Shown: positions 9,871 to 27,649 of the stretch, in pieces
How the letters are laid out: every line of letters begins with the position of its first letter
Numbering within the stretch: the stretch's first letter is position 1
Assembly: GCA_021646405.1 (NCBI GenBank)
Contig: SOER01000036.1
Span: 1 to 35,611, forward strand
DNA length: 35,611 nucleotides
Direction of reading: 5' to 3'
Source: Candidatus Loosdrechtia aerotolerans
Lineage (GTDB): Bacteria; Planctomycetota; Brocadiia; Brocadiales; Brocadiaceae
The notes under the pieces: model-generated
The model's database searches: none
Seen by the model: the letters and a program-made list of their open reading frames with translations, nothing else
Told to the model about the DNA's origin: nothing
Made by a program: the position numbers and the translations under genes

Positions 9871-9883
9871 CATATGAAAGTAA

Positions 9884-10150
9884 CTTGATTGTATAGGAAT
9901 TTTCATTTTATGTAAGCGGGTTTGCGGGGAGGTGTTGTTATAAGGTTAACGATGTTACTATGATGCAACAGTGATTCTTTATGTTGAATTGTTTTTCATC
10001 CCGAAGGGATGCCATGATTATAGCAAAAGACCTCAGAAGAATTGTAAACCCCGAAGGGGTGACATACTTATAAATAAAAAATGAAAATAACAGCTAACCC
10101 GGAACGGTGGTGCCAAAACACAGCTTCATAATGTCACCCCTTCGGGGTTA
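9884..10150 (+). repeat. 267-bp inverted repeat, copy A
   Basis: This stretch is repeated in reverse at 12410-12676 with about three mismatches. It has internal palindromes: CATCCCGAAGGGATG, then AACCCCGAAGGGGTGAC and its reverse at the right end. It has no coding frame. It fills nearly all the exbB-exbD gap. The high identity points to recent duplication or gene conversion. Confidence 0.9.
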
Positions 10151-10207
10151 AGTACAATTTTTAAACTTGCGCTGGATATCTTTTCTTAATTTTTACCATA
10201 AAAAACC

Positions 10208-12337: not shown

Positions 12338-12395
12338 AAAATTCCTATACATTGTACTTAACCCCGAAGGGGTGAAATGATTATAGCAAAAGAAT
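12338..12395 (+). repeat. Partial extra copy of the 12410-type repeat
   Basis: GAAAATTCCTATACATTGT followed by AACCCCGAAGGGGTG and TGATTATAGCAAAAG repeats words found in the 267-bp unit that begins at 12410, in a shortened arrangement. It looks like a decayed or recombined copy. Confidence 0.45.
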
Positions 12396-12409
12396 AAAAC
12401 ACAGACTAA

Positions 12410-12676
12410 TAACCCCGAAGGGGTGACATTATGAAGCTGTGTTTTGGCACCACCGTTCCGGGTTAGCTGTTATTTTCATTTTTTATTTACAAGTATGTCA
12501 CCCCTTCGGGGTTTACAATTCTTCTGAGGTCTTTTGCTATAATCATGGCATCCCTTCGGGATGAAAAACAATTCAACATAAAGAATCACTGTTGCATCAT
12601 AGTAACATCATTAACCTTATAACAACACCTCCCCGTAAACCCGCTTACATAAAATGAAAATTCCTATACAATCAAG
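12410..12676 (-). repeat. 267-bp inverted repeat, copy B
   Basis: Reverse complement of copy A (9884-10150) with about three substitutions over 267 bp. Together the copies bracket 2.26 kb with exbD, a MITE and the ferredoxin, so homologous recombination between them could invert that segment. No transposase or recombinase gene is associated. Confidence 0.9.
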
Positions 12677-12910
12677 CTCAGGTACTATTCCTCACTATGC
12701 TATCAGCTATGCGCACCCTTATGCTCTCTCTACATCAAGAAAAAGTACAGCGCTACTCCGCATGCTATCATGGGTGCGCACACCCACGACCAAACGCCAA
12801 AAAAGTACAGCAAATTTCCTTAGCTTGATGCATATGGGACGAAGGGAGAGGGATCTTTTCTCTAGCTCGTATCTGTAGTTTGTATACTAACACGAAACAC
12901 CGGCACTCCA
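12677..12910. repeat. Repeat patch before leuS
   Basis: It contains GCCAAAAAAGTACAGCAAA and CTTAGCTTGATGCATATG (12819-12836), the reverse of the 6160 repeat, and part of the nested pair in MITE copy 1. No gene or clear leuS terminator is present. Confidence 0.45.
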
Positions 12911-16394: not shown

Positions 16395-17200
16395 ATATAT
16401 CCTAACATAAATTATTAATTCACTACTCTCTCATAACTTCTCATAACTACACCATTCCGTCATCCACTCTCACTTCTTCCTTTCAAGTTTCTTCAGTAGC
16501 AATATGATCTATTATTTCTGGTGTATTTACAGCATTACAATGAGCATATGGGAATATAGTAGAGGTTATGGGGTCATGGGGTCATGGGTTATGGGATCAG
16601 TTATGGGGTCACAGTTATGAAAGTTATGAAAGTTATGGAAAGTTATGGGGTCACCCATTAGAAGGCTTGTCACCCATTAGAAGGCTTTTGTCAAGCGAAA
16701 AAAATTCTCCGTAGCAAAATATCACAGATTTTTTGCCTTATTAAATGAAATAACTCTACTATCCAATAAGCATTCATCCCAGGTACCGCACCCGTATTTT
16801 CAGGTTTTTTAGTTACGGATTATAAATCCGCACCAGTCACCCATCCGGATCCAGGCTCGTTCTGAATAAATTCAACACCGATTTTCGCAGCACCTAATGA
16901 TATAAGATTACTATGAATGATAACACTTATTTATACCGAAGAAAACCCTGTATTTTCAGGGAGTTATATACATTCCAACAATTAAGACAGGGCATGTATG
17001 TCTTATACAATATGACGTTTATAGATGAATATATTAAATGTTTAAACTTTCGTGTGATAATTCTAAACCTTGGGTATGACACAGTGACCATCTGTCGTAA
17101 GCCTTATGAATATTGCATGCCAGGCAATAATGTTCTTTTTGTTATTTTTTTGCTTTTTTATGAAGATCATGTTTTAATAATTTTATTCTTGATATTATCA
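16395..17200. repeat. Gene-poor region with short tandem repeats
   Basis: From about 16568 to 16662 there are runs of GGTTATGGGGTCATGG and AAGTTATG words. Two direct copies of GTCACCCATTAGAAGGCTT start at 16650 and 16669. The right part is AT-rich and contains the detached end of the YkgJ gene (17104-17200). A long open frame from 16913 into the transposase is not credible before 17225. Confidence 0.5.
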
Positions 17201-18975
17201 CCGTCATGTAGTATAAGATGTCTGATGCCTGATAGAAAATTCTTCCTCTACCCCAAATTTGACTGGCAACGCCGCTACGAAGCCCTGCGCTCCTCTTTTG
17301 TCGAGCGCCTGCCTGCCAGGATTGTGGCAGAGCGCTTTGGCTACAGTCTGGAATATATCCATCTCCTTCGGCACCAGTTCATATATGGGAAGATAGATTT
17401 CTCCGAGCCGGTTCCGGAGGGAATAACAAAGCGGCATACAGTCAATGCAGAAGTCCGCAAAAAGATAAGGCACTGGCGGGAGCAACGGCTGTCGGCAGGA
17501 GAAATCACCGAACTCCTGAGCGAGGATGGTACTGAAATCTCTGTGCGCACGGTTGAGAGGGTCCTTCGGGAAGAAGGCTTTCCCAGGCTGCCTCGCCGTA
17601 CAAGGCTTAAAACTGGATTCACGGTAAAAGGGGCCGAGGTGCCTGAACGCTCTGCCTCTGTCAACATTGGAGAATTAGAAGGCCAGACCTTTGAGTCCGA
17701 TTCTGCCGGGATATTTATCTTTTCTCCCTTCCTGGCAAAACTGGGTATCGGGGAAATAGCCCAGGCAGCAGGACTTCCTCAGACAAAGGCCATTCCTGCC
17801 AGGAGCTATCTGCTCTCCTTTCTTGCCCTGAAACTCCTTGGAACCGAACGATACGCCCATGTCAGTGATCATGCCTTTGATCCGGCCCTGGGAGTCTTCG
17901 CCGGCCTGAATGTGCTGCCCAAGTGCACCGCTCTGTCTACCTACTCATACTCCCTGGATGATGTTCACATCCTGCGCCTGCAGAAGGCATTTGTTAGCAA
18001 TGCTTCACGGATCGGCCTCTACGATGGCAGGTATGTTAATCTTGATTTCCACACTGTGCCGCATTTTGGAGAGGAATCCGTGCTGGAGGAGCACTGGGCC
18101 GGTGCCCGCAATAAAAGAATGAAAGGCGCCCTTACCCTCTTTGCCCAGGATGGGGAATCAAAGCTGATCCTGTATACGGATGCGGATATAAGGCGCAGTG
18201 AATCCGATGATCAGGTACTGGAATTTCTCTCCTTCTATAGGCACATACGCAGTGGCATAAGGCCGACACTGGTGTTTGATTCCAAGTTCACATCCTACCA
18301 GAAGCTCTCGGAACTCAACGCCAATCACAGGATAAAATTCATTACCCTCAGACGCCGTGGGAAAAATCTCATAGAGGAGGCCGAGGGGTTATCGCCGTGG
18401 AGACGCATTGAAATTCCTCATGTCAGGCGAAAGTATAAAAACCCCCAGGTGCATGAATCCATGATCACTCTGCGGGGATATGAGGGAAAGGTTCGCCAGG
18501 TAGTGCTTCGAGGAAATGGACGCGAGCATCCGGCGTTTCTGATCACCAATGACTTTGATATGCCGGTAGAGCTTGTCGTTGGCAACTACGCCCGGAGATG
18601 GCGTGTGGAGAACAGCATAGCCGAAGCTGTCAAGTTTTTTCATCTGAATGCCCTGTCATCGCCGATACTGGTGAAAGTCCATTTCGATGTAGTCATGACG
18701 ATGATTGCCGACACCCTGTATTCAATGCTTGCAAAGAAGCTACGTGGTTTTGAGGATTGTGATGCCCCTAAAATATACCGCCACTTTGTGCGTGGGAAGG
18801 GCACGATCTCTATCAGGAATCAGACAGTCACAGTAACATATCCCAGAAGGGTGCACAACCCTATCCTGAGAGGCGTGCAATGGGAACAACTGCCGGAAGC
18901 AGTGCCGGGCATGGACAATGCCAGGTTACATTTGAGATTTAAATAATGTCACCAATTCTTATATTTACGTGACGG
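17201..18975 (+). mobile_element. Insertion sequence, IS4/IS1634-like
   Basis: Imperfect terminal inverted repeats start CCGTCA(T/C)GTA and continue into TATAAGA (17201-17217 and the reverse at 18957-18975). The 1775-bp element has one gene that fills it. The flanks TTATCA and TTATAG agree at four of six bases, suggesting a 5-6 bp target duplication that has decayed or been misjudged. It interrupts the YkgJ-family gene. Its base composition is visibly richer in GC than the flanks, suggesting foreign origin. Confidence 0.75.
17225..18946 (+). CDS. DDE transposase, IS4/IS1634-like
   Basis: This 573-residue transposase moves the surrounding IS. It starts with a helix-turn-helix region (RIVAERFGYSLEYIHLLRHQF), then a linker with a second HTH-like part (SAGEITELLSEDGTEISVRTVERVL). 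The catalytic core has aspartates in LDFHTVPHF and LVFDSKFTSYQKL and the glutamate in the YARRWRVENSIAEAVKFF motif, the Y-(2)-R-(3)-E signature of IS4-type enzymes. The ATG at 17225 lies 24 nt inside the left terminal repeat. The open frame extends upstream to 16913, but that part is AT-rich, lies outside the IS and looks non-coding. The gene appears intact. Confidence 0.85.
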   Translation: MPDRKFFLYPKFDWQRRYEALRSSFVERLPARIVAERFGYSLEYIHLLRHQFIYGKIDFSEPVPEGITKRHTVNAEVRKKIRHWREQRLSAGEITELLSEDGTEISVRTVERVLREEGFPRLPRRTRLKTGFTVKGAEVPERSASVNIGELEGQTFESDSAGIFIFSPFLAKLGIGEIAQAAGLPQTKAIPARSYLLSFLALKLLGTERYAHVSDHAFDPALGVFAGLNVLPKCTALSTYSYSLDDVHILRLQKAFVSNASRIGLYDGRYVNLDFHTVPHFGEESVLEEHWAGARNKRMKGALTLFAQDGESKLILYTDADIRRSESDDQVLEFLSFYRHIRSGIRPTLVFDSKFTSYQKLSELNANHRIKFITLRRRGKNLIEEAEGLSPWRRIEIPHVRRKYKNPQVHESMITLRGYEGKVRQVVLRGNGREHPAFLITNDFDMPVELVVGNYARRWRVENSIAEAVKFFHLNALSSPILVKVHFDVVMTMIADTLYSMLAKKLRGFEDCDAPKIYRHFVRGKGTISIRNQTVTVTYPRRVHNPILRGVQWEQLPEAVPGMDNARLHLRFK

Positions 18976-19309
18976 TTATAGCTTTGCGAAAATCGGTGTT
19001 TATTGTCAAGTTTAAATAAAAGGGATACAGACGGCAGGAAATGGGGCGGTGCGTATGAATAAAACATCTTATCCCGTCGGTAAAGTTGCATGTACTGCCT
19101 ATAATTTCAAGCGTTCCTCCAGGTAATTTAAGTCTTTCATTGCATATCTGTTTACCGCTTCGCTTCAAAATAAATTCATCCTCGTAGGGTAATAATACAG
19201 ATAATGGTTTTTGCTCACACCGGCCATCACATTTCTCTATGCAAGGCATGAATCCAAAATTTGCTGCATAAATTTCATCATAAATTTTAAATAATTTTAA
19301 TTTATCCAT
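18965..19309 (-). pseudogene. YkgJ-family Cys-cluster protein, cut by the IS
   Basis: YkgJ-family proteins are small cytoplasmic proteins thought to bind zinc or iron through conserved cysteines; their role is unknown. Visible are CIEKCDGRC near residue 23, a CNFTDGIRCFIH segment and the RPISCRLYPFYLN signature. The present frame ends inside the IS terminal repeat, so its last residues are not native. If the IS and one 6-bp target copy are removed, the frame continues in register on the left side (17200 down to a stop at 17104) for about 33 codons rich in lysine. This supports IS disruption. The start (MDKLKLF) lies next to the attL repeat at 19313, so its promoter is also disturbed. Confidence 0.7.
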
Positions 19310-19312
19310 ATT

Positions 19313-19333
19313 TTTAATAAGTATAAATTATTT
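19313..19333. repeat. Candidate attL
   Basis: This 21-bp AT-rich sequence matches 27387-27407 at 20 of 21 positions in direct orientation; the shared core is GTATAAATTATTT. It lies 4 nt upstream of the YkgJ start and 314 bp before the first element gene. Confidence 0.6.
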
Positions 19334-19468
19334 CAAGGCTTTTTTTAGGTGTTTTTATGATTTCTCGCATGTTCCTGTTTCTTTTGATTCTACCAGCAAT
19401 CATGAGGCTTTCAAAGGAATTTAATCCTTGTTTGTTTTTATCAGTTTTGGTATGTTTCTATGACAGAC

Positions 19469-19489
19469 TACGACATAAGTACGACATAA
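19469..19489. repeat. Candidate integrase arm site, left
   Basis: Two direct ACGACATAA units (19470 and 19481) form a block that matches 27314-27333 at 16 of 20 positions. The two blocks lie just inside the candidate att repeats, the position of arm-type integrase or excisionase binding sites. Confidence 0.4.
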
Positions 19490-19554
19490 AAGGGAAGTAA
19501 ACCGATTACTTACCCTGGGGGATACTGTCAGTGGCAGTACCCTTTTAAACATAA

Positions 19555-19615
19555 TCAAGAGCTAGCTTGACGAGGCGAAGAGCCGCTTTCCTGGGCGGCC
19601 CGCTCTTGACTTTTT
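19555..19615 (+). terminator. Large hairpin with T-run before first element gene
   Basis: Outer arms TCAAGAGC (19555-19562) and GCTCTTGA (19602-19609) are followed by CTTTTT. An inner stem GCCGC/GCGGC sits at 19582-19599. A smaller hairpin precedes it at 19519-19542. It could insulate the element from outside transcription or end a short leader RNA; the first gene begins 31 nt later. The 19334-19554 stretch holds no gene. Confidence 0.6.
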
Positions 19616-19646
19616 CACCAGGAGTCATTTTTTCAGGAGAAATGAC

Positions 19647-20336
19647 ATGAATGAAAGCACAATTCCGGGGCGCGATAGATTACAGGCTTTGCTCAGGATT
19701 CCACAATTCAAAGAGGACCTTAACAAAGTAGCCTCAGGCACTCAAAAACAAAAAGCGAAGCTGAAGCGATTATTTACCAGCAAATACAATGTTACTTATG
19801 AATTGGCACGGCATTTAGCGGGTGGGGAGCCTTCTTTGCTGGGAGAGAACAGGCAGTTTCTTAATAATATATTCAACGGTGGTCCCGTCGAAATCATACC
19901 ATCATGGATGGCTTTAGAGGCAGCAGAGCCCTATATTCCCGAATCACACATTTATAATTTAAGAGAAGAACGGTACCTTACAATCAACATCGACTTATCA
20001 AAAAACAGATCTGAAATTTTATCGCAAGTTGAGAGCATAATTGACTCCGCAGCAGCCCATAACAAGGAAAACTTAGAAGCGTTTCAGTATTTCAATGAAA
20101 ACCGGGGAACGCAAAAGGATTTTCGATTTTCGATATGGACGGTATATGACTTATGTTCCGAGAAGAAAACTCCAAACTTTACTCAGGTTGCCAGATCCTT
20201 GTCTGGAAGGACAGGGCAGGCGCGAGATGATCAACAATTGTCAGCATGCCTGAAAGCTGTTAAAAGAGCTTATAGACGGGCATGCCAAATTATGACATGC
20301 GTAAAAACAGAAATAAACAAAGAGGTGGACGTGTAA
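19647..20336 (+). CDS. Unknown element protein, first gene
   Basis: I do not recognise this 229-residue protein. It is soluble, with no signal peptide or membrane segment. The N-terminal part is basic (QKQKAKLKRLFTSKYNV, about residues 33-49). The C-terminal quarter, from NFTQVARSLSGRTGQARDDQQLSACLKAVKRAYRRA, looks like a helical module that could bind DNA. TCAGGAGA lies 7 nt before the ATG. It stands between two terminators (19555-19615 and 20385-20427), so it appears to be its own transcription unit. Its place at the left edge of the element, apart from the replication block, would fit a regulator or initiator, but nothing proves this. Confidence 0.65.
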   Translation: MNESTIPGRDRLQALLRIPQFKEDLNKVASGTQKQKAKLKRLFTSKYNVTYELARHLAGGEPSLLGENRQFLNNIFNGGPVEIIPSWMALEAAEPYIPESHIYNLREERYLTINIDLSKNRSEILSQVESIIDSAAAHNKENLEAFQYFNENRGTQKDFRFSIWTVYDLCSEKKTPNFTQVARSLSGRTGQARDDQQLSACLKAVKRAYRRACQIMTCVKTEINKEVDV

Positions 20337-20384
20337 AAAGTTTTTATAGCGGGTATCGTTAAATTTTTACTTAACACTATAATA

Positions 20385-20427
20385 AACCCTCATGATCAGC
20401 AATGAAGCTGGTTTTGAGGGTTTTTTT
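20385..20427 (+). terminator. Intrinsic terminator after the first element gene
   Basis: AACCCTCA (20385-20392) pairs with TGAGGGTT, with an inner CAGC/GCTG stem, followed by a run of seven T. It lies about 50 nt after the stop at 20336. Confidence 0.8.
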
Positions 20428-20458
20428 ATTTTCATAAATATTTTTGGAGGTATTTTGA

Positions 20459-20620
20459 ATGAGTGAACCGTGTAAGTTGTTTAGTGTGGTGATACCGTTT
20501 GAAAGGTACAAACAGTTAAAGACGATTGCAAAAGAAAACGATGTGTCGCTAGGAAAAACAATTCGTATTGCCATTGATTCGTTTCTAGATCAAAAGCCAA
20601 AGACCGAAACAAAAGGTTAA
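20459..20620 (+). CDS. Small ribbon-helix-helix-like protein
   Basis: The 53-residue frame reads MSEPCKLFSVVIPFERYKQL then KTIAKENDVSLGKTIRIAID. A short strand (LFSVVIPFE) followed by two helices with SLGKTIRIAI between them is the pattern of CopG/Arc-type ribbon-helix-helix regulators, which bind DNA as dimers. TTTTGGAGG lies about 8 nt before the ATG, a strong ribosome site. It opens the block after the terminator at 20427, and the primase-like gene starts 8 nt after its stop. It may autoregulate the replication genes. The family call rests on pattern only. Confidence 0.65.
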   Translation: MSEPCKLFSVVIPFERYKQLKTIAKENDVSLGKTIRIAIDSFLDQKPKTETKG

Positions 20621-20628
20621 ACCCAAAC

Positions 20629-21171
20629 ATGTCAATACTACCACAAAAACCAGATATTGTTTCTATTCTTGAAAAAGAAGGAATTGAGCTACGGCAGAGA
20701 GGCCGTCATTTTTGGGCGTGTTGTCCTTTGCATGCCGAGAACACGCCGTCTTTTTGTGTAGATCCCAGAAGGCAACGATTTAAATGTTTTGGTTGTCAGG
20801 CTTCAGGGGATGTTATTGATTTCATCCGGAGATCCAAAGGGTTTTCGTTTGGCCAGGCATTGCAACATTTGGGGCTTGACGGTAGTTGTGATAAGCCGTC
20901 AAAACTTGAATCTGAGGAAATGAGGTATCGCAAATTGGTAAAAGCTTTCAATCGTTGGATAGACTCATATACGAAAGAATGCTGTGACCTTGTAAGGATA
21001 TCACGCCAAATTAATGCAACAATCAAAACACCAGAAATGCTAGACATGCCAGAAATCGAAAATATCTACCTAATTCGTGACATAGCAGTATATCACTTAT
21101 CTGTTCTGGAAAGCGATGACATGGAATCGAAACTCAACATCTGGAGGGAGATTACCAGGGATGAGACATAA
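20629..21171 (+). CDS. CHC2 zinc-finger primase-like protein
   Basis: The first 90 residues are a clear CHC2 zinc finger of DnaG-type primases: WACCPLHAENTPSFCV, then RFKCFGCQASGDVIDFI, with C-x2-H...C-x2-C metal ligands. In primases this finger recognises the template start site. The rest of the 180-residue protein is helical and lacks the TOPRIM catalytic domain, so on its own it should not make primers. It probably works with the DUF3987 protein, which it overlaps by 11 bp. Similar split zinc-finger plus DUF3987 arrangements are frequent in prophages and integrative elements. The ATG has no strong Shine-Dalgarno but follows the RHH gene by 8 nt. Confidence 0.85.
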   Translation: MSILPQKPDIVSILEKEGIELRQRGRHFWACCPLHAENTPSFCVDPRRQRFKCFGCQASGDVIDFIRRSKGFSFGQALQHLGLDGSCDKPSKLESEEMRYRKLVKAFNRWIDSYTKECCDLVRISRQINATIKTPEMLDMPEIENIYLIRDIAVYHLSVLESDDMESKLNIWREITRDET

Positions 21172-22747
21172 AGGCATAAATTTAGGAGATCCACTTCTAG
21201 GACTTTCGCAGGAAGAGGCGGCACGGTTATTAGATGATTACGGAACGAAAGCGACACCTACACAACAAGGACCGAGGGAGGACTTATTGTCTACCAAAGA
21301 ATATCCTTTACATGTTTTTCCCGAACAACTCCGGGATCTTATTAAAAGTTTTGCCCATTCCTTTACGGTTAGCGAGGAAGTTGTCGGGACCGTTGCTGCC
21401 ACTATCTTAAGTTCAAGTATTGGTAATTCTATCGAGGTTTGTGTAAAAAACGATTACGCAGTCAGACCGTTTCTATGGGCGGTTTTAATTATGCCTTCCG
21501 GTAGCACAAAATCGCCGCTTATTAATAAATTGTCTGGGCCCGTAAAACAAATGCAGGGTGTAAAGTTTTTCGAGTACACGGAAAAGATGAAAGAATATGA
21601 TCGGTTGGTTGACGTTTATAAAAGTTCACAGAAGGGCAAGAGGAACTTTCTTGAGAACCCTGCGGAAAAACCTGAAATGCCTACCCTTGCGCATTTTTAC
21701 GTAAGCGATATTACCCTGGAGTCTTTAATGGATGTTTTTGAATCGCAACAACGAGGTGTCTTGTCTTACCAGGATGAACTCTCAGGGCTTATTAAAGGTT
21801 TGGACCAGTATAAAAAAAGTGGGAACGACCGACAGAGGTATCTTGAGATATTTAATTGTGCACCAATGAAGATAGACAGGAAGGGGCGACAGCGTTTTGT
21901 ACCTAATACAGGTATAGGCATTATCGGGGGGATTCAGCCGGAAATCTTACCCAGCGTTTTCGGATCTGAGAGTTTTTCCGATGGGCTTCTGCCTAGATTT
22001 ATCTTTTGTTATCCGGAAGTTTACCCAAAGACATGGGTCAAAGAAAGTGTGCCTGAATCACTTATAAGCTACTGGGAGTACCTTGTAAGCTGGTGCTATG
22101 AAATACCGGTGAATTACAACGCGTATGGAGGACTTGTACCGCAAAAGCTGATATTCAGCACTGAGGGTATGAACGTTTGGGAGGATTTCTATAATAGATA
22201 CAGTAGTCTAGAGGTGAAATTGTCCAGCAAGAAGGGTTCAGTGTTTATACCAAAATTGCATTTATATTGTGCTAAGTTTGCGGGGGTTTTACACGTTCTT
22301 AATAGTTTGGAATCAGGCCATATACCGCCAGTGATTAACGAAAAATCCGTAAGGGGGGCGGTTGATCTTGCCGACTACTACCTGGGGCAAGTGGGTAAAC
22401 TTCTCAGGCTGTACGGAAGTGACGATTGTGACGATTGTGACGCAAGTGAGCATGATATAAGAGTAATAAATGTAATTTATAATTTAAGGAATGAAGTGAA
22501 AAAAGGGAGGCTAAATATAAATAGTATAGTAGAGGAATACAATAATAATATAGATAGTCAATTACATTTAGATAATAAGATTATCAGTAATATTATTAGT
22601 AAAAATTTAAATTTATCTACTATACATAGTAATGCTGGTTCTCTCTTATTATGGGAATCTAATAAATTACAGAATTTATTTCTTAAGCATGTACCCTCAC
22701 TATCGTCACTATCGTCACTATCGTCACAAAATGGGGATAAGGTTTAA
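21161..22747 (+). CDS. DUF3987 ATPase/replication protein
   Basis: This 528-residue protein belongs to DUF3987, a P-loop family common in phages and mobile elements beside primase zinc fingers and probably acting as the replicative helicase-like ATPase. A Walker A-like loop reads MPSGSTKSP near residue 115, and a Walker B-like segment reads VLSYQDELSGLI near residue 205. The rest, including LRFIFCYPE-like and AGVLHVLNSLE segments, is intact. The frame opens at 21116, but the ATG at 21161, with GGAGGGA upstream, gives a better start and an 11-bp overlap with the primase gene. The last 110 codons are AT-rich and low-complexity and contain two sets of 9-bp repeats (22419-22442, 22698-22727), possibly an origin. 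Confidence 0.82.
   Translation: MRHKGINLGDPLLGLSQEEAARLLDDYGTKATPTQQGPREDLLSTKEYPLHVFPEQLRDLIKSFAHSFTVSEEVVGTVAATILSSSIGNSIEVCVKNDYAVRPFLWAVLIMPSGSTKSPLINKLSGPVKQMQGVKFFEYTEKMKEYDRLVDVYKSSQKGKRNFLENPAEKPEMPTLAHFYVSDITLESLMDVFESQQRGVLSYQDELSGLIKGLDQYKKSGNDRQRYLEIFNCAPMKIDRKGRQRFVPNTGIGIIGGIQPEILPSVFGSESFSDGLLPRFIFCYPEVYPKTWVKESVPESLISYWEYLVSWCYEIPVNYNAYGGLVPQKLIFSTEGMNVWEDFYNRYSSLEVKLSSKKGSVFIPKLHLYCAKFAGVLHVLNSLESGHIPPVINEKSVRGAVDLADYYLGQVGKLLRLYGSDDCDDCDASEHDIRVINVIYNLRNEVKKGRLNINSIVEEYNNNIDSQLHLDNKIISNIISKNLNLSTIHSNAGSLLLWESNKLQNLFLKHVPSLSSLSSLSSQNGDKV
22419..22727. repeat. Iteron-like repeats around AT-rich core (possible origin)
   Basis: GTGACGATT occurs twice plus a partial third at 22419-22442. 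The complement, TATCGTCAC, occurs three times at 22701-22727, so the sets point at each other. Between them lie about 250 bp that are strongly AT-rich. Direct iterons beside an AT-rich unwinding zone within a replication gene is the layout of many plasmid and satellite origins. The repeats also encode DDCDD and SLSSLSS tracts, so protein-level low complexity is the alternative. Confidence 0.45.
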
Positions 22748-22790
22748 TTCCGGTTACTCTAATTAATCACTTTTTTACGGAGGAAATGAA

Positions 22791-23348
22791 ATGCCAGAAA
22801 AAGCAATAAAACCAGCAATTGCAGAATTAAAAGCAGTACAAAGCCGGGTCCAAGAGGAGCAAAGCAAACTTGCGGTCCTGGACACAAAAGCCAAAGAAAC
22901 ACAAGCCAAAATCGATGCCCTACAAGTGGAGTTGTCGCAGATAAAACCACACACACCAGAACAACTTGAACAGATGATCTTGGATGACTTACAGACCGAC
23001 AACCATATACGCAAGCCAGATGTGATAAAAGGCGAAATTAAGACGCTTTCGGAGAAGCTGGGCGAGATTCGACAGGTTAAGGCCCGTGTTGTGGAACGCT
23101 TGACAGAGTTGAACGCTTCAGAAATGACTTTAGAAAGAAAGGTGTGGGCGGCAATCGCCGGTAAACTTTCCAGAGAGTTAGAAACACACATTGGTGACCG
23201 GGTAAAGCTGTTGTGGGGCTGCGTTCATCGTATGCAAAACTACCACCATTTTCCAGAACTTCCTGAGGTGCTCAAGTGTTTGAAACGCCCCATTGCGGCG
23301 GAGGCACAACTGCTGGCAGCGAAAATACGAGAAAAATACGGATTTTAA
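22791..23348 (+). CDS. Coiled-coil element protein
   Basis: Not recognised. The first 120 of 185 residues are a long coiled coil rich in Ala, Glu, Lys and Gln (AELKAVQSRVQEEQSKL, TKAKETQAKIDALQVEL, EIKTLSEKLGEIRQVKARV). The C-terminal part (LLWGCVHRMQNYHHFPELP and on) is compact and ends in an Ala-rich helix. No membrane segment is seen. TACGGAGG lies 8 nt before the ATG. It follows DUF3987 by 43 nt and is followed by another small helical protein. It might be a scaffold or partner of the replication proteins, but there is no direct evidence. Confidence 0.7.
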   Translation: MPEKAIKPAIAELKAVQSRVQEEQSKLAVLDTKAKETQAKIDALQVELSQIKPHTPEQLEQMILDDLQTDNHIRKPDVIKGEIKTLSEKLGEIRQVKARVVERLTELNASEMTLERKVWAAIAGKLSRELETHIGDRVKLLWGCVHRMQNYHHFPELPEVLKCLKRPIAAEAQLLAAKIREKYGF

Positions 23349-23377
23349 TTTATCACTTTTTTCAAAGGAGGCAGCAC

Positions 23378-23767
23378 ATGAGTTTGACTCTGGAACAATA
23401 CGAGAAGATGCAAATCGACACAAAGGCAATTGACGCCAAGAAACAATCGAGAATCTTGTGTACTGAAGATCTCAGAAGACGTGAGAGGCTTCTCCGGCTG
23501 ACCGGCAAAGGGAAACCTTCATATTTTTTTTTGAAGCAATATATGAAAGATAACGGGCCGTCCGCAGACAGCGAGGAAAGGTTGAGGGCTGAAGCGTTCA
23601 AACGAGCGGACGAACAACGGCAAAAAGAAAAAAAGAAAAAAGAGGCAGAGGAGAAGCGAAGGTTAGATCTTTTAGCGAGTAGCATCTACGACCTGGCCGT
23701 TGGAACGCACGCACAAAGGTTAGCAACGGTGAGACGAGCGTTTGGCTTAAAGGACATATCAGTATGA
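23378..23767 (+). CDS. Small charged helical protein
   Basis: Not recognised. The 129-residue protein is helical and highly charged; a stretch of about 35 residues from ERLRAEAFKRADEQRQ to KKKKEAEEKRR is a lysine/glutamate helix, and the tail ends HAQRLATVRRAFGLKDISV. The frame is open from 23276, but AAAGGAGG lies 7 nt before the ATG at 23378, which fixes the start. It ends in a 4-bp overlap with the next gene, so the two are translationally coupled. Confidence 0.7.
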   Translation: MSLTLEQYEKMQIDTKAIDAKKQSRILCTEDLRRRERLLRLTGKGKPSYFFLKQYMKDNGPSADSEERLRAEAFKRADEQRQKEKKKKEAEEKRRLDLLASSIYDLAVGTHAQRLATVRRAFGLKDISV

Positions 23768-24093
23768 GAACCTGCGGCGATTGTCTCTTTATGCGGGCAA
23801 AGATCCCAGTGAGTATTGACGGAAGGATCCTTTACCGGAAAGCGAAAGCCTCTTGTGTGAAAGGGCAGATCCGGAATAATCAGGGGAATCAGATTCAGTT
23901 TAACGATTCGCAACGACGCTTAATGCATCGGGAATATAACGATGTCTACATATATAAACACTGGATGCGAGCTGCCAGCTGCCACCATTACAACGATAGC
24001 GATATCGGCCAGCTTGACTTTGGGTCCTTCCAGGAGGAAAAGGGTTCGGGTAATAGCACGCCGCAGGAAACATCTAGTGACAGAAATTTTTAA
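23764..24093 (+). CDS. Small cysteine-containing protein
   Basis: Not recognised. The 109-residue protein starts MRTCGDCLFMRAK, with further cysteines in KASCVKGQI and AASCHHYND, a set of four Cys plus adjacent His residues that could bind zinc. It resembles the small zinc-ribbon proteins of prophage regions in spacing only. ATGA overlap with the upstream gene implies coupled translation. The tail (about 35 residues) is Gly/Ser/Gln-rich and probably disordered. Confidence 0.65.
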   Translation: MRTCGDCLFMRAKIPVSIDGRILYRKAKASCVKGQIRNNQGNQIQFNDSQRRLMHREYNDVYIYKHWMRAASCHHYNDSDIGQLDFGSFQEEKGSGNSTPQETSSDRNF

Positions 24094-24114
24094 ACTATTT
24101 TACTTAGGAGGGTT

Positions 24115-24492
24115 ATGACAATGCTAAATCGGGATGAATTGGCCGGGAAGTTTGGAATCTCTCAGACGGTTATATCGAAATACTTAAAGCAGGGCCTACC
24201 GAATACCAGGAAAGGCAAAAATATTTTCTTTGGCGATGACGCAATTCAGTGGATAGAGCAAAATTCTTACAAGTTTATGACAGAAATAGAGGATGAGGAT
24301 CCGGACGAGGAAGATCCAATTCCGTTTATGAAGATACCTGGAGAAGGGCCTTCAAAATTTCTGTTACTTTGTCTTGATAACGATTATGTGAGAGATGGTG
24401 AAATTGTTTTGTCAGAAAAGGGGCACGAAAGTATTCTGCGATTTGCGAAAGCGTTACAGGAAGATTTAGACAACGGCGAGTCTAACAGCTGA
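24115..24492 (+). CDS. HTH protein, possibly Nu1/terminase-small-like
   Basis: The first 50 of 125 residues form a winged or MerR-like helix-turn-helix: LNRDELAGKFGISQTVISKYL, KQGLPNTRKGKNIFFGDDA, IQWIEQN. This resembles the DNA-binding domain of phage Nu1-type small terminase subunits and some excisionases. An acidic linker (EIEDEDPDEEDPIPFM) and a C-terminal helical segment follow. A small terminase with no large subunit nearby would fit a satellite that diverts helper packaging, but simple regulation is equally possible. GGAGGG lies 5 nt before the first ATG; a second ATG two codons on is an alternative start. A 12-bp hairpin follows the gene. Confidence 0.6.
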   Translation: MTMLNRDELAGKFGISQTVISKYLKQGLPNTRKGKNIFFGDDAIQWIEQNSYKFMTEIEDEDPDEEDPIPFMKIPGEGPSKFLLLCLDNDYVRDGEIVLSEKGHESILRFAKALQEDLDNGESNS

Positions 24493-24504
24493 AAATCATT
24501 AACA

Positions 24505-24543
24505 ATGGCCGTTGCCCCCCCGTGGTAAAAAGGCAACGGCCAT
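24505..24543. repeat. 12-bp inverted repeat after the HTH gene
   Basis: ATGGCCGTTGCC (24505-24516) and GGCAACGGCCAT (24532-24543) are exact complements around a 15-nt loop. No T-run follows on either strand, so it is more likely a protective or regulatory hairpin. AAAGGCAACGGC recurs in the terminator at 26069. Confidence 0.6.
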
Positions 24544-24566
24544 AACAAAAAAGGATGCCATGACCT

Positions 24567-24746
24567 ATGATTATAACAAGCAGCAAGCAGCAATACAATA
24601 CTAAACTCCTGGCCTACCTTCACGGGCTGCATAAATTGAGGGTGTCCGGGTGTCCGGATTCTGCCGGGCAAAAGGTGCTCATGGAGGAGGCACGGAGAAT
24701 AAAAGGGAAAATCGATGAATCTTTAAAAAGGGGATGTCAGAGATGA
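24567..24746 (+). CDS. Small 59-residue protein
   Basis: Not recognised. The frame begins MIITSSKQQYNTKLLAYLHG and contains GCPDSAGQKVLMEEARRIKGKI, a soluble helical pattern. Its end overlaps the start of the excisionase-like gene, consistent with a tight phage-style operon. The ribosome site is weak (AAGGATG about 14 nt before). Support is therefore moderate: the packing is good, but there is no family match that I can name. Confidence 0.45.
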   Translation: MIITSSKQQYNTKLLAYLHGLHKLRVSGCPDSAGQKVLMEEARRIKGKIDESLKRGCQR

Positions 24747-24952
24747 AAATTATCAATCCTAGTGAAGGCGGTCTGATGGATATGAAGCAAGCGGCAGAGT
24801 ATCTTAATGTCAAGACTTCTACACTCTATAGTATGTGCATGCGGAGAGAAATTCCATACGTAAAAATTGGAAGATTAAACCGGTTTCGTAAGATTGATTT
24901 AGACACCTGGATAACAGAGCGCATCCAAGAGGCGAACACGAACAATGGCTAG
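24734..24952 (+). CDS. Excisionase-like HTH protein
   Basis: The 72-residue protein carries a MerR-like winged helix of the excisionase/HTH_17 type: LMDMKQAAEYLNVKTSTLY, SMCMRREIPYVKIGRLNRF, RKIDLDTWITERI. Proteins of this kind bind att or promoter DNA and steer the integrase toward excision. Alternative starts are 24734 (after AAAAAGGGG) and 24743, which overlaps the upstream stop as ATGA. The methylase gene begins 8 bp before its stop. Co-occurrence with an integrase on the same strand supports the excisionase role; regulation of the element's own promoter is the alternative. Confidence 0.8.
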   Translation: MSEMKIINPSEGGLMDMKQAAEYLNVKTSTLYSMCMRREIPYVKIGRLNRFRKIDLDTWITERIQEANTNNG

Positions 24953-25784
24953 AACGCTTAAACCTCCCATTAACAGGATTGGCGGCAAACACTTTCTAGC
25001 CAGTTGGATCGCAGAGAAGATGCCGGGACATACGCTTTATTGTGAAGTCTTTAGCGGTGCAGGGCATTTACTCTTTGGTAAGAAACCAGGTCAGATTGAA
25101 GTGTTGAACGATGTTGATAATTACCTGATAGGTTTTTTTCAGGTGATCAAAGACCATGAGAAAAGACAAAAGCTAATCGAAACACTCCGGTATATGCCGT
25201 ATTCCCGGAAGCTATGGCAAGACCTGCGGCATCAATGGAAGACCGGGAACATCCCAGGAGATCCGATAGAGCAAGCTACGCAATGGCTTTACCTTAATAG
25301 AACAACCTTTGCAGGTGATCAGCGGCGAGGTGGTTTTGCTGTACCTTCCGTAACGGGCAGGAACCCGGCACAATCTTTCAGGGCCTCTGTTGATTCCTTT
25401 GAGGGTGTAGCAGAGAGACTACGAAACGTAACTATTGAATGCCTGGACTACCGTGAATGTGTCCGCAGGTATGATAGCGAGGATAGTTTATTTTATATAG
25501 ATCCACCATACTTAAGCAGCGGGCATTATTATAATGATTCTTTCACGCAGGATGACCACAGTGGCCTTACAGGCCTCTTGCACGGGGTAAAAGGTAAAGT
25601 AATGGTTACACACTACCAGAATGACCTATACGACGAACTATACCGAGACTGGCAAAGGTATGAATACCAGTCTTTTAAGGGTAGCCATAAGTCAGATGGT
25701 GAGGAAAAGCCAAAAACTACCGAGGTGCTGTATTGCAATTTCAGGCCAGAAGTCAGAACCAGGAACCTTTTTGAGGGGGTATGA
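24945..25784 (+). CDS. Dam-type DNA adenine methyltransferase (D12 class)
   Basis: It transfers a methyl group from S-adenosylmethionine to adenine N6 in DNA. The family order is visible: INRIGGKHFLASWI at the N-terminus, AdoMet-binding CEVFSGAGHLLFGK (about residues 33-46), and the catalytic DPPY in LFYIDPPYLSSGHYY (near residue 187). The length of 279 residues is normal. No restriction endonuclease gene is near, so it is an orphan, as often found in phages, where it may block host restriction or set replication timing. Its recognition site cannot be read from sequence. It overlaps the excisionase-like gene by 8 bp. Confidence 0.92.
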   Translation: MARTLKPPINRIGGKHFLASWIAEKMPGHTLYCEVFSGAGHLLFGKKPGQIEVLNDVDNYLIGFFQVIKDHEKRQKLIETLRYMPYSRKLWQDLRHQWKTGNIPGDPIEQATQWLYLNRTTFAGDQRRGGFAVPSVTGRNPAQSFRASVDSFEGVAERLRNVTIECLDYRECVRRYDSEDSLFYIDPPYLSSGHYYNDSFTQDDHSGLTGLLHGVKGKVMVTHYQNDLYDELYRDWQRYEYQSFKGSHKSDGEEKPKTTEVLYCNFRPEVRTRNLFEGV

Positions 25785-25787
25785 ATA

Positions 25788-25880
25788 ATGAAGCAATTTT
25801 CTGTTACAGATTTTTGGGTATGGCTATTCTATCTTGAAATATTTTTAACTTATGCCGGAATGGTCTGGATGCTGTTTTAA
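25788..25880 (+). CDS. 30-residue hydrophobic protein
   Basis: A short frame, MKQFSVTDFWVWLFYLEIFL and on to GMVWMLF, is almost entirely hydrophobic and would form one membrane helix. TGAGGGGG lies about 7 nt before the ATG and it starts 3 nt after the methylase stop, both favouring real translation. Tiny membrane proteins at this place in mobile elements can act in host interference or lysis, but no function is claimed. Confidence 0.45.
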   Translation: MKQFSVTDFWVWLFYLEIFLTYAGMVWMLF

Positions 25881-25897
25881 TAGTAATTAAAGGGTTA

Positions 25898-26118
25898 AAG
25901 GGTGTCGCTTCAACAGACACCCTTGGACGTTCAAGTCCGTGACGTCGGTTTAACCGACGTCACAAAAAAAGTCTTGCAATTTTCCGGAAAGTACGATAGT
26001 ACGTACCTATTGATAACAAGGCGTGGTCAGGACGCTATGTATAATATGCCTGGGGGAACTCAGGTAGTAAAGGCAACGGCTGTGAGACCTGACCTCTCAT
26101 GGCTTGTTGCCTTTTTTT
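25898..26118 (+). ncRNA. Chain of hairpins ending in a terminator (candidate RNA)
   Basis: In order: a 9-bp stem at 25898-25924 with a 9-nt loop; a short GGAC/GTCC stem at 25925-25938; a 12-bp perfect inverted repeat with 1-nt centre at 25939-25963; TTTCCGGAAA (25981-25990); a GCGT/ACGC stem (26021-26035); a 6-bp stem with GGAA tetraloop (26049-26064); and an intrinsic terminator, AAAGGCAAC/GTTGCCTTT with seven T (26069-26118). Seven potential stems in 220 nt, closed by a terminator, suggest a structured RNA. A 73-codon frame with GTG start covers it but has no good support. Confidence 0.5.
26069..26118 (+). terminator. Intrinsic terminator before the integrase
   Basis: AAAGGCAAC (26069-26077) pairs with GTTGCCTTT (26106-26114), with an inner TGAGA/TCTCA stem, followed by a T-run to 26118. 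It would stop transcription from the upstream operon before the integrase. Confidence 0.8.
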
Positions 26119-26143
26119 ATTGAAAGGACGGTGATAAGTTTTC

Positions 26144-27307
26144 ATGGGTGTAAGGTATCGGAAGTATCACAAGCAGTGTAAGCCTATTAACTGCAATGGA
26201 AGGCCTCACAAACGCCATTGTCCCGATGATCGGCCCAAGAGGTCTAATGGTGAATACAAAGCCTGTGGTGTCTGGTGTATTGAGTTTTTTGACGATAGCA
26301 AACAGTGGCAGTCTCTTACTTTCAAGGATGTACGGAATAAGACGGATGCCGAAAAGAGACTTGCTCTGTATATCTCAGACCGGGAAAGAGGACAATTAAA
26401 CCTGCCAAAGAAAAAGCTTACTCCTACCCTTACAGAGTATAGCCAGCAATACTTAGCATTCCATAAGAGGGAAAAGGAAAACACAAGACTTGCCAGAATC
26501 CGAGCCATACAGACACTATCACGATACCTGGGCAATTACAAACTGGATAAGTTGACTCCATTTGTCATAGAGAAGTTCAGACTTGAGAGGCAGGAAAAGG
26601 ACCAGGTAGGGGCAAACACTGTCAATGCAGACCTGGCATTTCTCAGGCATATGTTGAATATGGCCTGCAAAGAGGGATTAATCAGTAACAATCCATGCAA
26701 AGAGGTAAAGAGGTCTAAGGCAGCACAAACACGTGACAGGATACTAACCGATGCAGAAATCAAACAGATCCTTGATACGGTACAAGGTAAGGACCGGTTA
26801 ATGATCCTTACGGCATTGTTTACCGGCATGAGACTAAGTGAGGTGTTATCCCTATCATGGCAGAATATAGATTTCAACAGGGGTCTGATAGAGTTTAGCC
26901 AGGGTAAGACCGGTAAGTTAATTGCAGTCCCCTTGTCTGACCTTCTGGCAGAGGAATTGACCGAGTATAAGAACCAGTATGATAACCTTGGTGATAGGGT
27001 TTTTGATAACCGACCGGTAACGCAATCTGTCGTTGCCAGATACAGCAACTACTTCAGTGACCTATTCAAGGGCATGGGCATTTATAACTTTACCTTTCAC
27101 AACCTCAGGCATACCTTTTCTAGTATTCTCCAGGGTGAACTGGGTATAGGTGCTGTAGTGGTACAGACCATGACGGGACATTCCAGCTTGGGCATGCTAC
27201 AGAAATATTCCCATAGTGGATTAGATAACAAACAAAAAGCTATTCAGGCATTAACAGACCATGTCTTAAATATGCATAAGAATACCAACAAAGTGGTGAA
27301 TCTGTGA
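26144..27307 (+). CDS. Tyrosine-type site-specific integrase
   Basis: This 387-residue recombinase would integrate and excise the element. Catalytic residues are all present: R230 (TGMRLSEVL), K255 in SQGKTGKL, H319-x-x-R322 (HNLRHTF), H346 (GHSSLG) and the nucleophile Y355 (LQKYSHSG). Residues about 92-180 are the SAM-like core-binding domain. The N-terminus is unusual: residues 8-45 carry CKPINC, HC and CGVWC, a possible zinc-binding arm domain. It is set apart from the operon by a terminator and starts 25 nt later. The stop lies 7 nt before the right arm-type block (27314) and 80 nt before candidate attR. Confidence 0.95.
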   Translation: MGVRYRKYHKQCKPINCNGRPHKRHCPDDRPKRSNGEYKACGVWCIEFFDDSKQWQSLTFKDVRNKTDAEKRLALYISDRERGQLNLPKKKLTPTLTEYSQQYLAFHKREKENTRLARIRAIQTLSRYLGNYKLDKLTPFVIEKFRLERQEKDQVGANTVNADLAFLRHMLNMACKEGLISNNPCKEVKRSKAAQTRDRILTDAEIKQILDTVQGKDRLMILTALFTGMRLSEVLSLSWQNIDFNRGLIEFSQGKTGKLIAVPLSDLLAEELTEYKNQYDNLGDRVFDNRPVTQSVVARYSNYFSDLFKGMGIYNFTFHNLRHTFSSILQGELGIGAVVVQTMTGHSSLGMLQKYSHSGLDNKQKAIQALTDHVLNMHKNTNKVVNL

Positions 27308-27313
27308 AAATGG

Positions 27314-27333
27314 TACGACGAGAGCACGACATA
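27314..27333. repeat. Candidate integrase arm site, right
   Basis: TACGAC and ACGACATA words match the left block at 19469 in 16 of 20 positions and in the same orientation. The block sits directly after the integrase stop. Confidence 0.4.
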
Positions 27334-27386
27334 GCGAAAACAGGTTTTTTATATCCGTTTGTCACCAAAACACTTGCAATATTTCA

Positions 27387-27407
27387 TTTAATATGTATAA
27401 ATTATTT
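27387..27407. repeat. Candidate attR
   Basis: Direct repeat of 19313-19333 with one mismatch (core GTATAAATTATTT). It lies 80 nt after the integrase stop, the usual place for an attachment site. Confidence 0.6.
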
Positions 27408-27497: not shown

Positions 27498-27649
27498 TAT
27501 TGATTTAAAAACAAAATATCATAATTTATTTTGGCTAAAATCTCCATGAATAAATAGGAATCTCCAAAATTAAGTATGGTGTCCCCGGGGTTCCAAATCC
27601 AGATTGCAAAGTTTTGTACAGATTACGGCGAATGCGGGCAGGTTGCCGA

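Follow-up and report, generated by a model that had tools for sequence, protein, structure and literature searches.

A putative phage-satellite-like island in the anammox bacterium Candidatus Loosdrechtia aerotolerans, with an int-alpA RNA ahead of its first gene

What kind of mobile element occupies positions 19313 to 27407 of contig SOER01000036.1 of Candidatus Loosdrechtia aerotolerans (Planctomycetota; Brocadiaceae)? The window analyzed here is the entire contig (35,611 nucleotides; contig C29 of the 61 contigs of the 3.26 Mb host genome). The block is probably an integrated phage satellite resembling the phage-inducible chromosomal islands (PICIs), in which an int-alpA RNA is proposed to keep the first gene (gene 1) off while the element is dormant. 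It belongs to a family of small islands in anammox bacteria that resemble phage parasites and had not been listed before. Knowledge of phage satellites comes chiefly from Gammaproteobacteria, Gram-positive cocci and certain bacteria of marine or soil origin. An open-access full-text search returned no paper combining 'phage satellite' and 'planctomycet'.

Limits, relatives and gene content of the block

The ends of the block are marked by the following features.

19313..19333, directly 5' of the ATG of a ykgJ-like gene: attachment (att) site repeat, attL-side copy, TTTAATAAGTATAAATTATTT
19334..19500, + strand: conserved left end with arm-type sites AAGTACGACATAAA
27313..27336: arm-type sites of the right end (GTACGAC, GCACGACATAG)
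27387..27407: attR-side copy of the direct repeat, TTTAATATGTATAAATTATTT

The two repeat copies are identical at 20 of 21 positions. Their score of 18 exceeds the highest value (14) among 400 dinucleotide shuffles of both 200-bp ends, and the 21-bp repeat with one mismatch described in an earlier reading of the sequence alone (the sequence-only reading) is thus confirmed. All credible genes between the copies lie on the + strand, with the integrase last, and GC skew is elevated across the same interval. Profile scans of the window proteins (Pfam, PHROGs, NCBIfam) gave no capsid, portal, large terminase, tail, lysis or relaxase match, in agreement with that reading, which had seen no structural or relaxase gene. 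No partition gene was seen among these proteins in the Pfam and PHROGs scans.

Related integrases are encoded in 23 of the 33 genomes of Brocadiaceae. DNA relatives of the left end occur in 28 of the 33, with six copies in the genome of the window itself. Twelve further elements of 6-12 kb, all oriented alike, were followed from their left end as far as the integrase. Nine of the twelve are bounded by clear direct repeats of 17-35 bp, each element having its own; L104 shows only a weak end repeat, and the longer repeats of L102 and L109 are explained by a second left end beyond them. Inside each of the two ends of the elements are arm-type GTACGACAT sites. The shared order is attL, arm-type sites, variable cargo, int-alpA RNA (where found), gene 1, a small ribbon-helix-helix or helix-turn-helix protein, CHC2/primase-helicase, small genes, AlpA, Dam, integrase, arm-type sites and attR. 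The same block, which the sequence-only reading had suggested looking for in related genomes, is therefore present in other Brocadiaceae with the same limits and order; structural genes were looked for inside these limits in the siblings and none was seen. A PHROGs scan of 84 element proteins returned mainly replication families and none structural among 25 listed of 80 matches, and given this coverage rare structural genes may occur in siblings.

Terminase small subunits (TerS), which serve PICIs to hijack packaging, recur among the siblings. Full-length TerS of phrog_57 is encoded in L160, L161, L162 and L164 (7e-27 to 5e-32) and in L106 (7.5e-28), and L110 encodes a TerS of another family, Terminase_4 (1.1e-16). 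These genes follow the replication genes and precede alpA or dam, and large terminase, portal and capsid were not seen in the siblings that carry them. A TerS in the absence of large terminase, portal or capsid is a signature of PICIs, and the set of integrase, AlpA, primase and TerS is that of PICIs (PMC6092414). The TerS slot of the siblings is occupied in the window by one small protein.

24115..24492, + strand: 125-aa protein with a winged helix of the TerS (phage lambda Nu1) type

This protein matches phrog_57 at 9.1e-5, is TerS-like in its first ~50 residues, and shares 35-44 % identity with open reading frames (ORFs) of siblings across 34-50 aa. The best structural matches of its model, in which overall confidence is low and the N domain good, are the DNA-binding domains of viral TerS proteins, together with one chain of 6hn7, a structure entry concerned with the redirection of helper packaging by PICIs of E. 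coli (E 0.008-0.02, probability 1.0). The 125-aa protein is a candidate packaging-redirecting protein. The sequence-only reading had listed two helix-turn-helix proteins here; that of 24734-24952 is indeed AlpA-type, but the 125-aa protein is TerS-like and not a generic regulator. Its wider proposal, a satellite-type element in a planctomycete, gains support from the homologous blocks with the same limits and from the TerS genes of several siblings.

The remaining features downstream of gene 1 are as follows.

20459..20620, + strand: 53-aa ribbon-helix-helix-like protein (weak match, E 0.063)
20629..21171, + strand: CHC2 zinc-finger primase part (Pfam, 9.7e-26)
21116..22747, + strand: DUF3987 primase/helicase-type replication protein (Pfam, 4.3e-49)
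22791..23348, + strand: 185-aa coiled-coil protein
23372..23767, + strand: 131-aa protein, in a slot shared with sibling proteins of 130-170 aa
23764..24093, + strand: 109-aa protein with no informative family
24734..24952, + strand: AlpA/Xis-like HTH_17 protein (HTH_17, 2.9e-14; phrog_66 excisionase/regulator, 1.7e-9)
24945..25784, + strand: orphan Dam-type adenine methyltransferase
25940..26125, + strand: non-coding stretch between dam and int, containing hairpins and ending like a terminator
26144..27307, + strand: tyrosine integrase, of the family counted above in Brocadiaceae

The one-strand order read earlier, from an unassigned protein through CHC2, DUF3987 and helix-turn-helix proteins to Dam and a tyrosine integrase, stands, its families having been matched. 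In siblings the slot of the 53-aa protein is held by small proteins of family F6. The 185-aa coiled-coil protein may be related, with much divergence, to the coiled-coil protein encoded ahead of TerS in siblings (21-26 % identity); in pairwise BLAST against L106 alone the match was not significant. Searches with degenerate patterns for the DUF3987 protein gave zero matches in genome and viral contigs. Its P-loop-like motif reads PSGSTKS in the window and PPGAGKS in sibling L108, a deviation by which the protein may be altered in ATP use. The stretch 25940-26125 is conserved, with an 89 % identical copy on contig C45 of the same genome, and has no Rfam match. Integrase matches in the phage collection were remote (at most about 25 % identity among the matches listed) and were not used.

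Several further observations concern the relatives. A second left end after the right repeat in L102, L105 and L109 suggests that the same site received more than one integration, in tandem or repeatedly. The window's own genome (G000) holds a related second element, L113 (contig C45:349-5811), with AlpA and Dam (70 % DNA identity) and an integrase of 90 % protein identity with one in-frame stop. In L117 (G000 contig C1:129-1130) the conserved left end lies almost directly on an integrase fragment, as in a mini-element with an internal deletion. Some siblings carry toxin-antitoxin-like cargo near attL and matches to defence-candidate families (PDC-S05, mads_8; alignment A1).

The int-alpA RNA and the leader of gene 1

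How might such an element be kept dormant? The leader of gene 1 contains a feature overlooked in the sequence-only reading, an RNA of the Rfam family int-alpA (RF02996), followed by a hairpin around the ribosome-binding site (RBS).

19555..19623, + strand: int-alpA RNA (48.1 bits against a gathering cut-off of 35.8)
19555-19562/19602-19609, + strand: closing stem of the RNA
19565-19576, + strand: hairpin A
19582-19599, + strand: hairpin B, with its loop at 19587-19594
19589..19594, + strand: anti-target TCCTGG in the loop of hairpin B
19618..19623, + strand: target CCAGGA, complementary to the loop of hairpin B
19624..19646, + strand: hairpin GTCATTT / AAATGAC enclosing the Shine-Dalgarno sequence AGGAG of gene 1 (19635-19639)
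19647..20336, + strand: gene 1, 229 aa, without Pfam or PHROG family; relatives in other elements

The RNA has 33 matches in 21 of the 33 family genomes, 27 of them above the cut-off, and none in 14 control genomes. An ORF starts ~17-28 nt downstream of it in most family loci. The loop of hairpin B pairs with a stretch just past the closing stem, and loop and target co-vary; the other pairs are CCTTG/CAAGG, TCTCCA/TGGAGA, TCCTTAG/CTAAGGA, CCCTAG/CTAGGG and CCTCTA/TAGAGG. Scored per sequence over 31 loci of Brocadiaceae, E. coli and Klebsiella, the pairing has a mean of 5.39 bp, compared with 3.80 +/- 0.20 bp after permutation (reached by 0 of 2000), figures that are no strict probabilities since the permutation preserves base composition and not shared descent. 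With unique loops only, which lessens the effect of shared descent but does not remove it, the values are 5.45 bp and 3.76 +/- 0.23 bp. In 25 of 26 family loci the Shine-Dalgarno sequence lies in the loop of a hairpin or beside it; mononucleotide shuffles gave 4.9 +/- 2.0 such loci. The Rfam model leaves the 3' strand unpaired, yet its own consensus (CCuU and AgGG) permits the loop-target pairing. Past the closing stem, the window and most family loci have a U-rich run.

A search with the Rfam consensus gave matches in 198 E. coli genomes. Six E. coli loci at yicC (L173-L177 and L179) have the order int, RNA, gene 1, AlpA, with Toprim/DUF927 wherever the stretch read reaches that far, and a Klebsiella plasmid has the order RNA, gene 1, AlpA. 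All seven enterobacterial loci show the same loop-target pairing and a similar RBS hairpin, and the direct neighbour of the RNA is gene 1, not alpA. Enterobacterial gene 1 encodes proteins of 272-317 aa, for which Pfam gave no significant family and PHROGs a single one, of unknown function. The yicC elements thus share with the window the order of RNA, gene 1 and AlpA, the pairing and the hairpin; they differ in a gene 1 that is not recognizably homologous in sequence, in having the integrase first and not last, in Icd/ash-type genes, and in that no TerS is annotated in the stretches read. The consensus RNA pattern was not found in viral contigs and returned only two planctomycete records in genome contigs, in one of which (L151) integrase, AlpA and primase were not apparent in 8 kb read by eye.

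It is proposed that the int-alpA RNA, lying just upstream, silences gene 1 during dormancy by base-pairing. The anti-Shine-Dalgarno-like loop of hairpin B would pair with the purine-rich target beside the RBS hairpin, either in trans after release of the RNA from the leader, the mode of C4 in P1 and P4, or in cis by forming a pseudoknot. Control in cis only, with the loop-target pseudoknot activating or repressing translation of gene 1, is compatible with a satellite; its chance is put somewhat short of even, and it is held to be nearly as likely as silencing in trans. Pseudoknot control of translation in cis has been described for the repA leaders of IncB/IncI plasmids. Loop and target lie in one leader and co-vary within each locus, and the target stands directly before the RBS hairpin, as cis control would have it; however, the co-variation is expected under both models, the U-rich run past the closing stem could free an RNA, and Rfam classes RF02996 as a small RNA.

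Gene 1 is a fast-evolving gene that might, with low confidence, start the lytic programme of the satellite, a role suggested by its place as first gene of the replication operon and by its dedicated switch. Replication initiation, derepression and induction all fit. Its structure model is poor (predicted local distance difference test, pLDDT, 59) and of low confidence, with a probably helical C terminus, and no fold match was found for it. The RNA may also confer immunity specific to the loop.

Comparison with known satellites and alternative readings

The block shares a tyrosine integrase, AlpA, a primase-replicase, short att repeats and the lack of lysis genes with the PICIs of Gram-negative bacteria (EcCICFT073 type), which carry TerS (in some) or another packaging signal and measure ~10-15 kb. 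Among the PICI characters, the window has an integrase with specific att sites, an AlpA-type regulator and a primase/replication module, and lacks structural and lytic genes. Unlike PICIs, it has a primase of the DUF3987/CHC2 type, an orphan Dam, and the int-alpA RNA with gene 1, and its host belongs to another phylum; EcCICFT073 itself gave no int-alpA match. Satellite phage P4 shares with the window an integrase, an AlpA-like excisionase/regulator, a primase and a regulatory RNA. C4-type RNAs repress in trans. The layout of P4 C4 RNA is like that of int-alpA, with a closing stem, a hairpin with a 4-nt loop and a hairpin with a 12-nt loop; the a1/b1 target match of P4 lies upstream of C4, whereas the target in the window lies downstream, beside the RBS of gene 1. 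No PHROG match for psu, sid or delta was found in the window. PICMIs (phage-inducible chromosomal minimalist islands) and tycheposons, which are satellites or integrative elements of small size with a reduced set of genes (PMC10803314, PMC11389934), are likened to the window by general description, not gene by gene.

As a PICI-like satellite, the element would be excised at the 21-bp repeats by the integrase with the AlpA/Xis-like protein, and the excised circle would be replicated by the CHC2 and DUF3987 proteins. The TerS-like protein (24115-24492) would bias the packaging motor of a helper phage toward the satellite, and the Dam methylase would mark satellite DNA. We infer excision, helper dependence and packaging from gene content, and the direction and mode of RNA action from the leader.

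Several points weigh against this account. Helper phage, excised circle, induction and particle have not been observed, and no CRISPR spacer in 62 genomes of the order matches the element. The PICI layout, with int at one end and the other modules read away from it, is not seen, all genes being on the + strand with the integrase last. The protein in the TerS slot matches TerS only over its first ~50 residues, and its C terminus is unlike that of a full TerS. C4 (RF01695) has no match to the RNA of the window, where only RF02996 matches. Among family loci, L131 and L132 lack the loop-target pairing, and L126 and L137 were not parsed by the strict pairing test, L126 pairing well in a looser one. 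Within the enterobacterial loci alone co-variation is weak (38 of 2000 permutations reach it), and some E. coli copies have a weak U-rich run or none, so that release by intrinsic termination is not general.

An autonomous replicon that integrates and excises in the manner of an integrated plasmid, forming no phage particles and carrying TerS-like genes in siblings as chance cargo, is an unlikely alternative that still deserves some weight. DUF3987-type proteins are found on plasmids (45 records), the window has no full-length TerS and no helper is known. Against this, several siblings carry TerS genes, of two unrelated families, in the same interval, the integrase/AlpA/primase/TerS set is that of PICIs (PMC6092414), and neither a relaxase nor a partition gene was seen in the window. 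That the block is a decayed prophage with its structural genes lost is very improbable: integrase, Dam and primase are phage genes too, but a compact order lacking structural genes recurs in at least 12 elements, 6-12 kb long, that share genes and occupy different sites, a recurrence that random decay would not produce.

Integration site and significance

The left repeat abuts the start codon of the ykgJ-like gene, whose 3' part is cut at ~19003, beside an insertion-sequence (IS)-type transposase ORF. That ORF (window 16913-19003, 677 aa) has no PHROG match and abuts the truncated gene. In relatives ykgJ lies between selB and an amidohydrolase gene, and in G005 a degenerate relative of the element (L033) sits at exactly the ykgJ junction. 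The genome of the window has selB and the amidohydrolase gene on contig C32, without ykgJ. On the right flank is a dispersed repeat (27552-27588), and the gene there had no match in the other family genomes by DNA search. The exact empty site was not found in the family genomes, because the locus is rearranged and both flanks have been altered by other mobile DNA. The short sequence of 27552-27588 recurs in many Brocadiaceae genomes and is possibly a transposable-element end. Elsewhere in the window, 9881-10156 and 12353-12695 are dispersed-repeat copies that recur at ~89-96 % identity on contigs C33 and C44.

It is possible, and put forward tentatively, that RF02996 forms a second class of antisense immunity RNA, C4-like but independent, and serves phage satellites in both Pseudomonadota and Planctomycetota. 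Loop/target codes of about six bases would define superinfection-immunity groups, and the RNA would control the fast-evolving master gene 1 of a family widespread in anammox bacteria. The co-varying loop and target, together with the RBS hairpin, give this orphan Rfam family a precise and testable regulatory hypothesis. The presence of the element family in most Brocadiaceae genomes implies an unstudied layer of phage satellites in anammox sludge, an industrially important setting.

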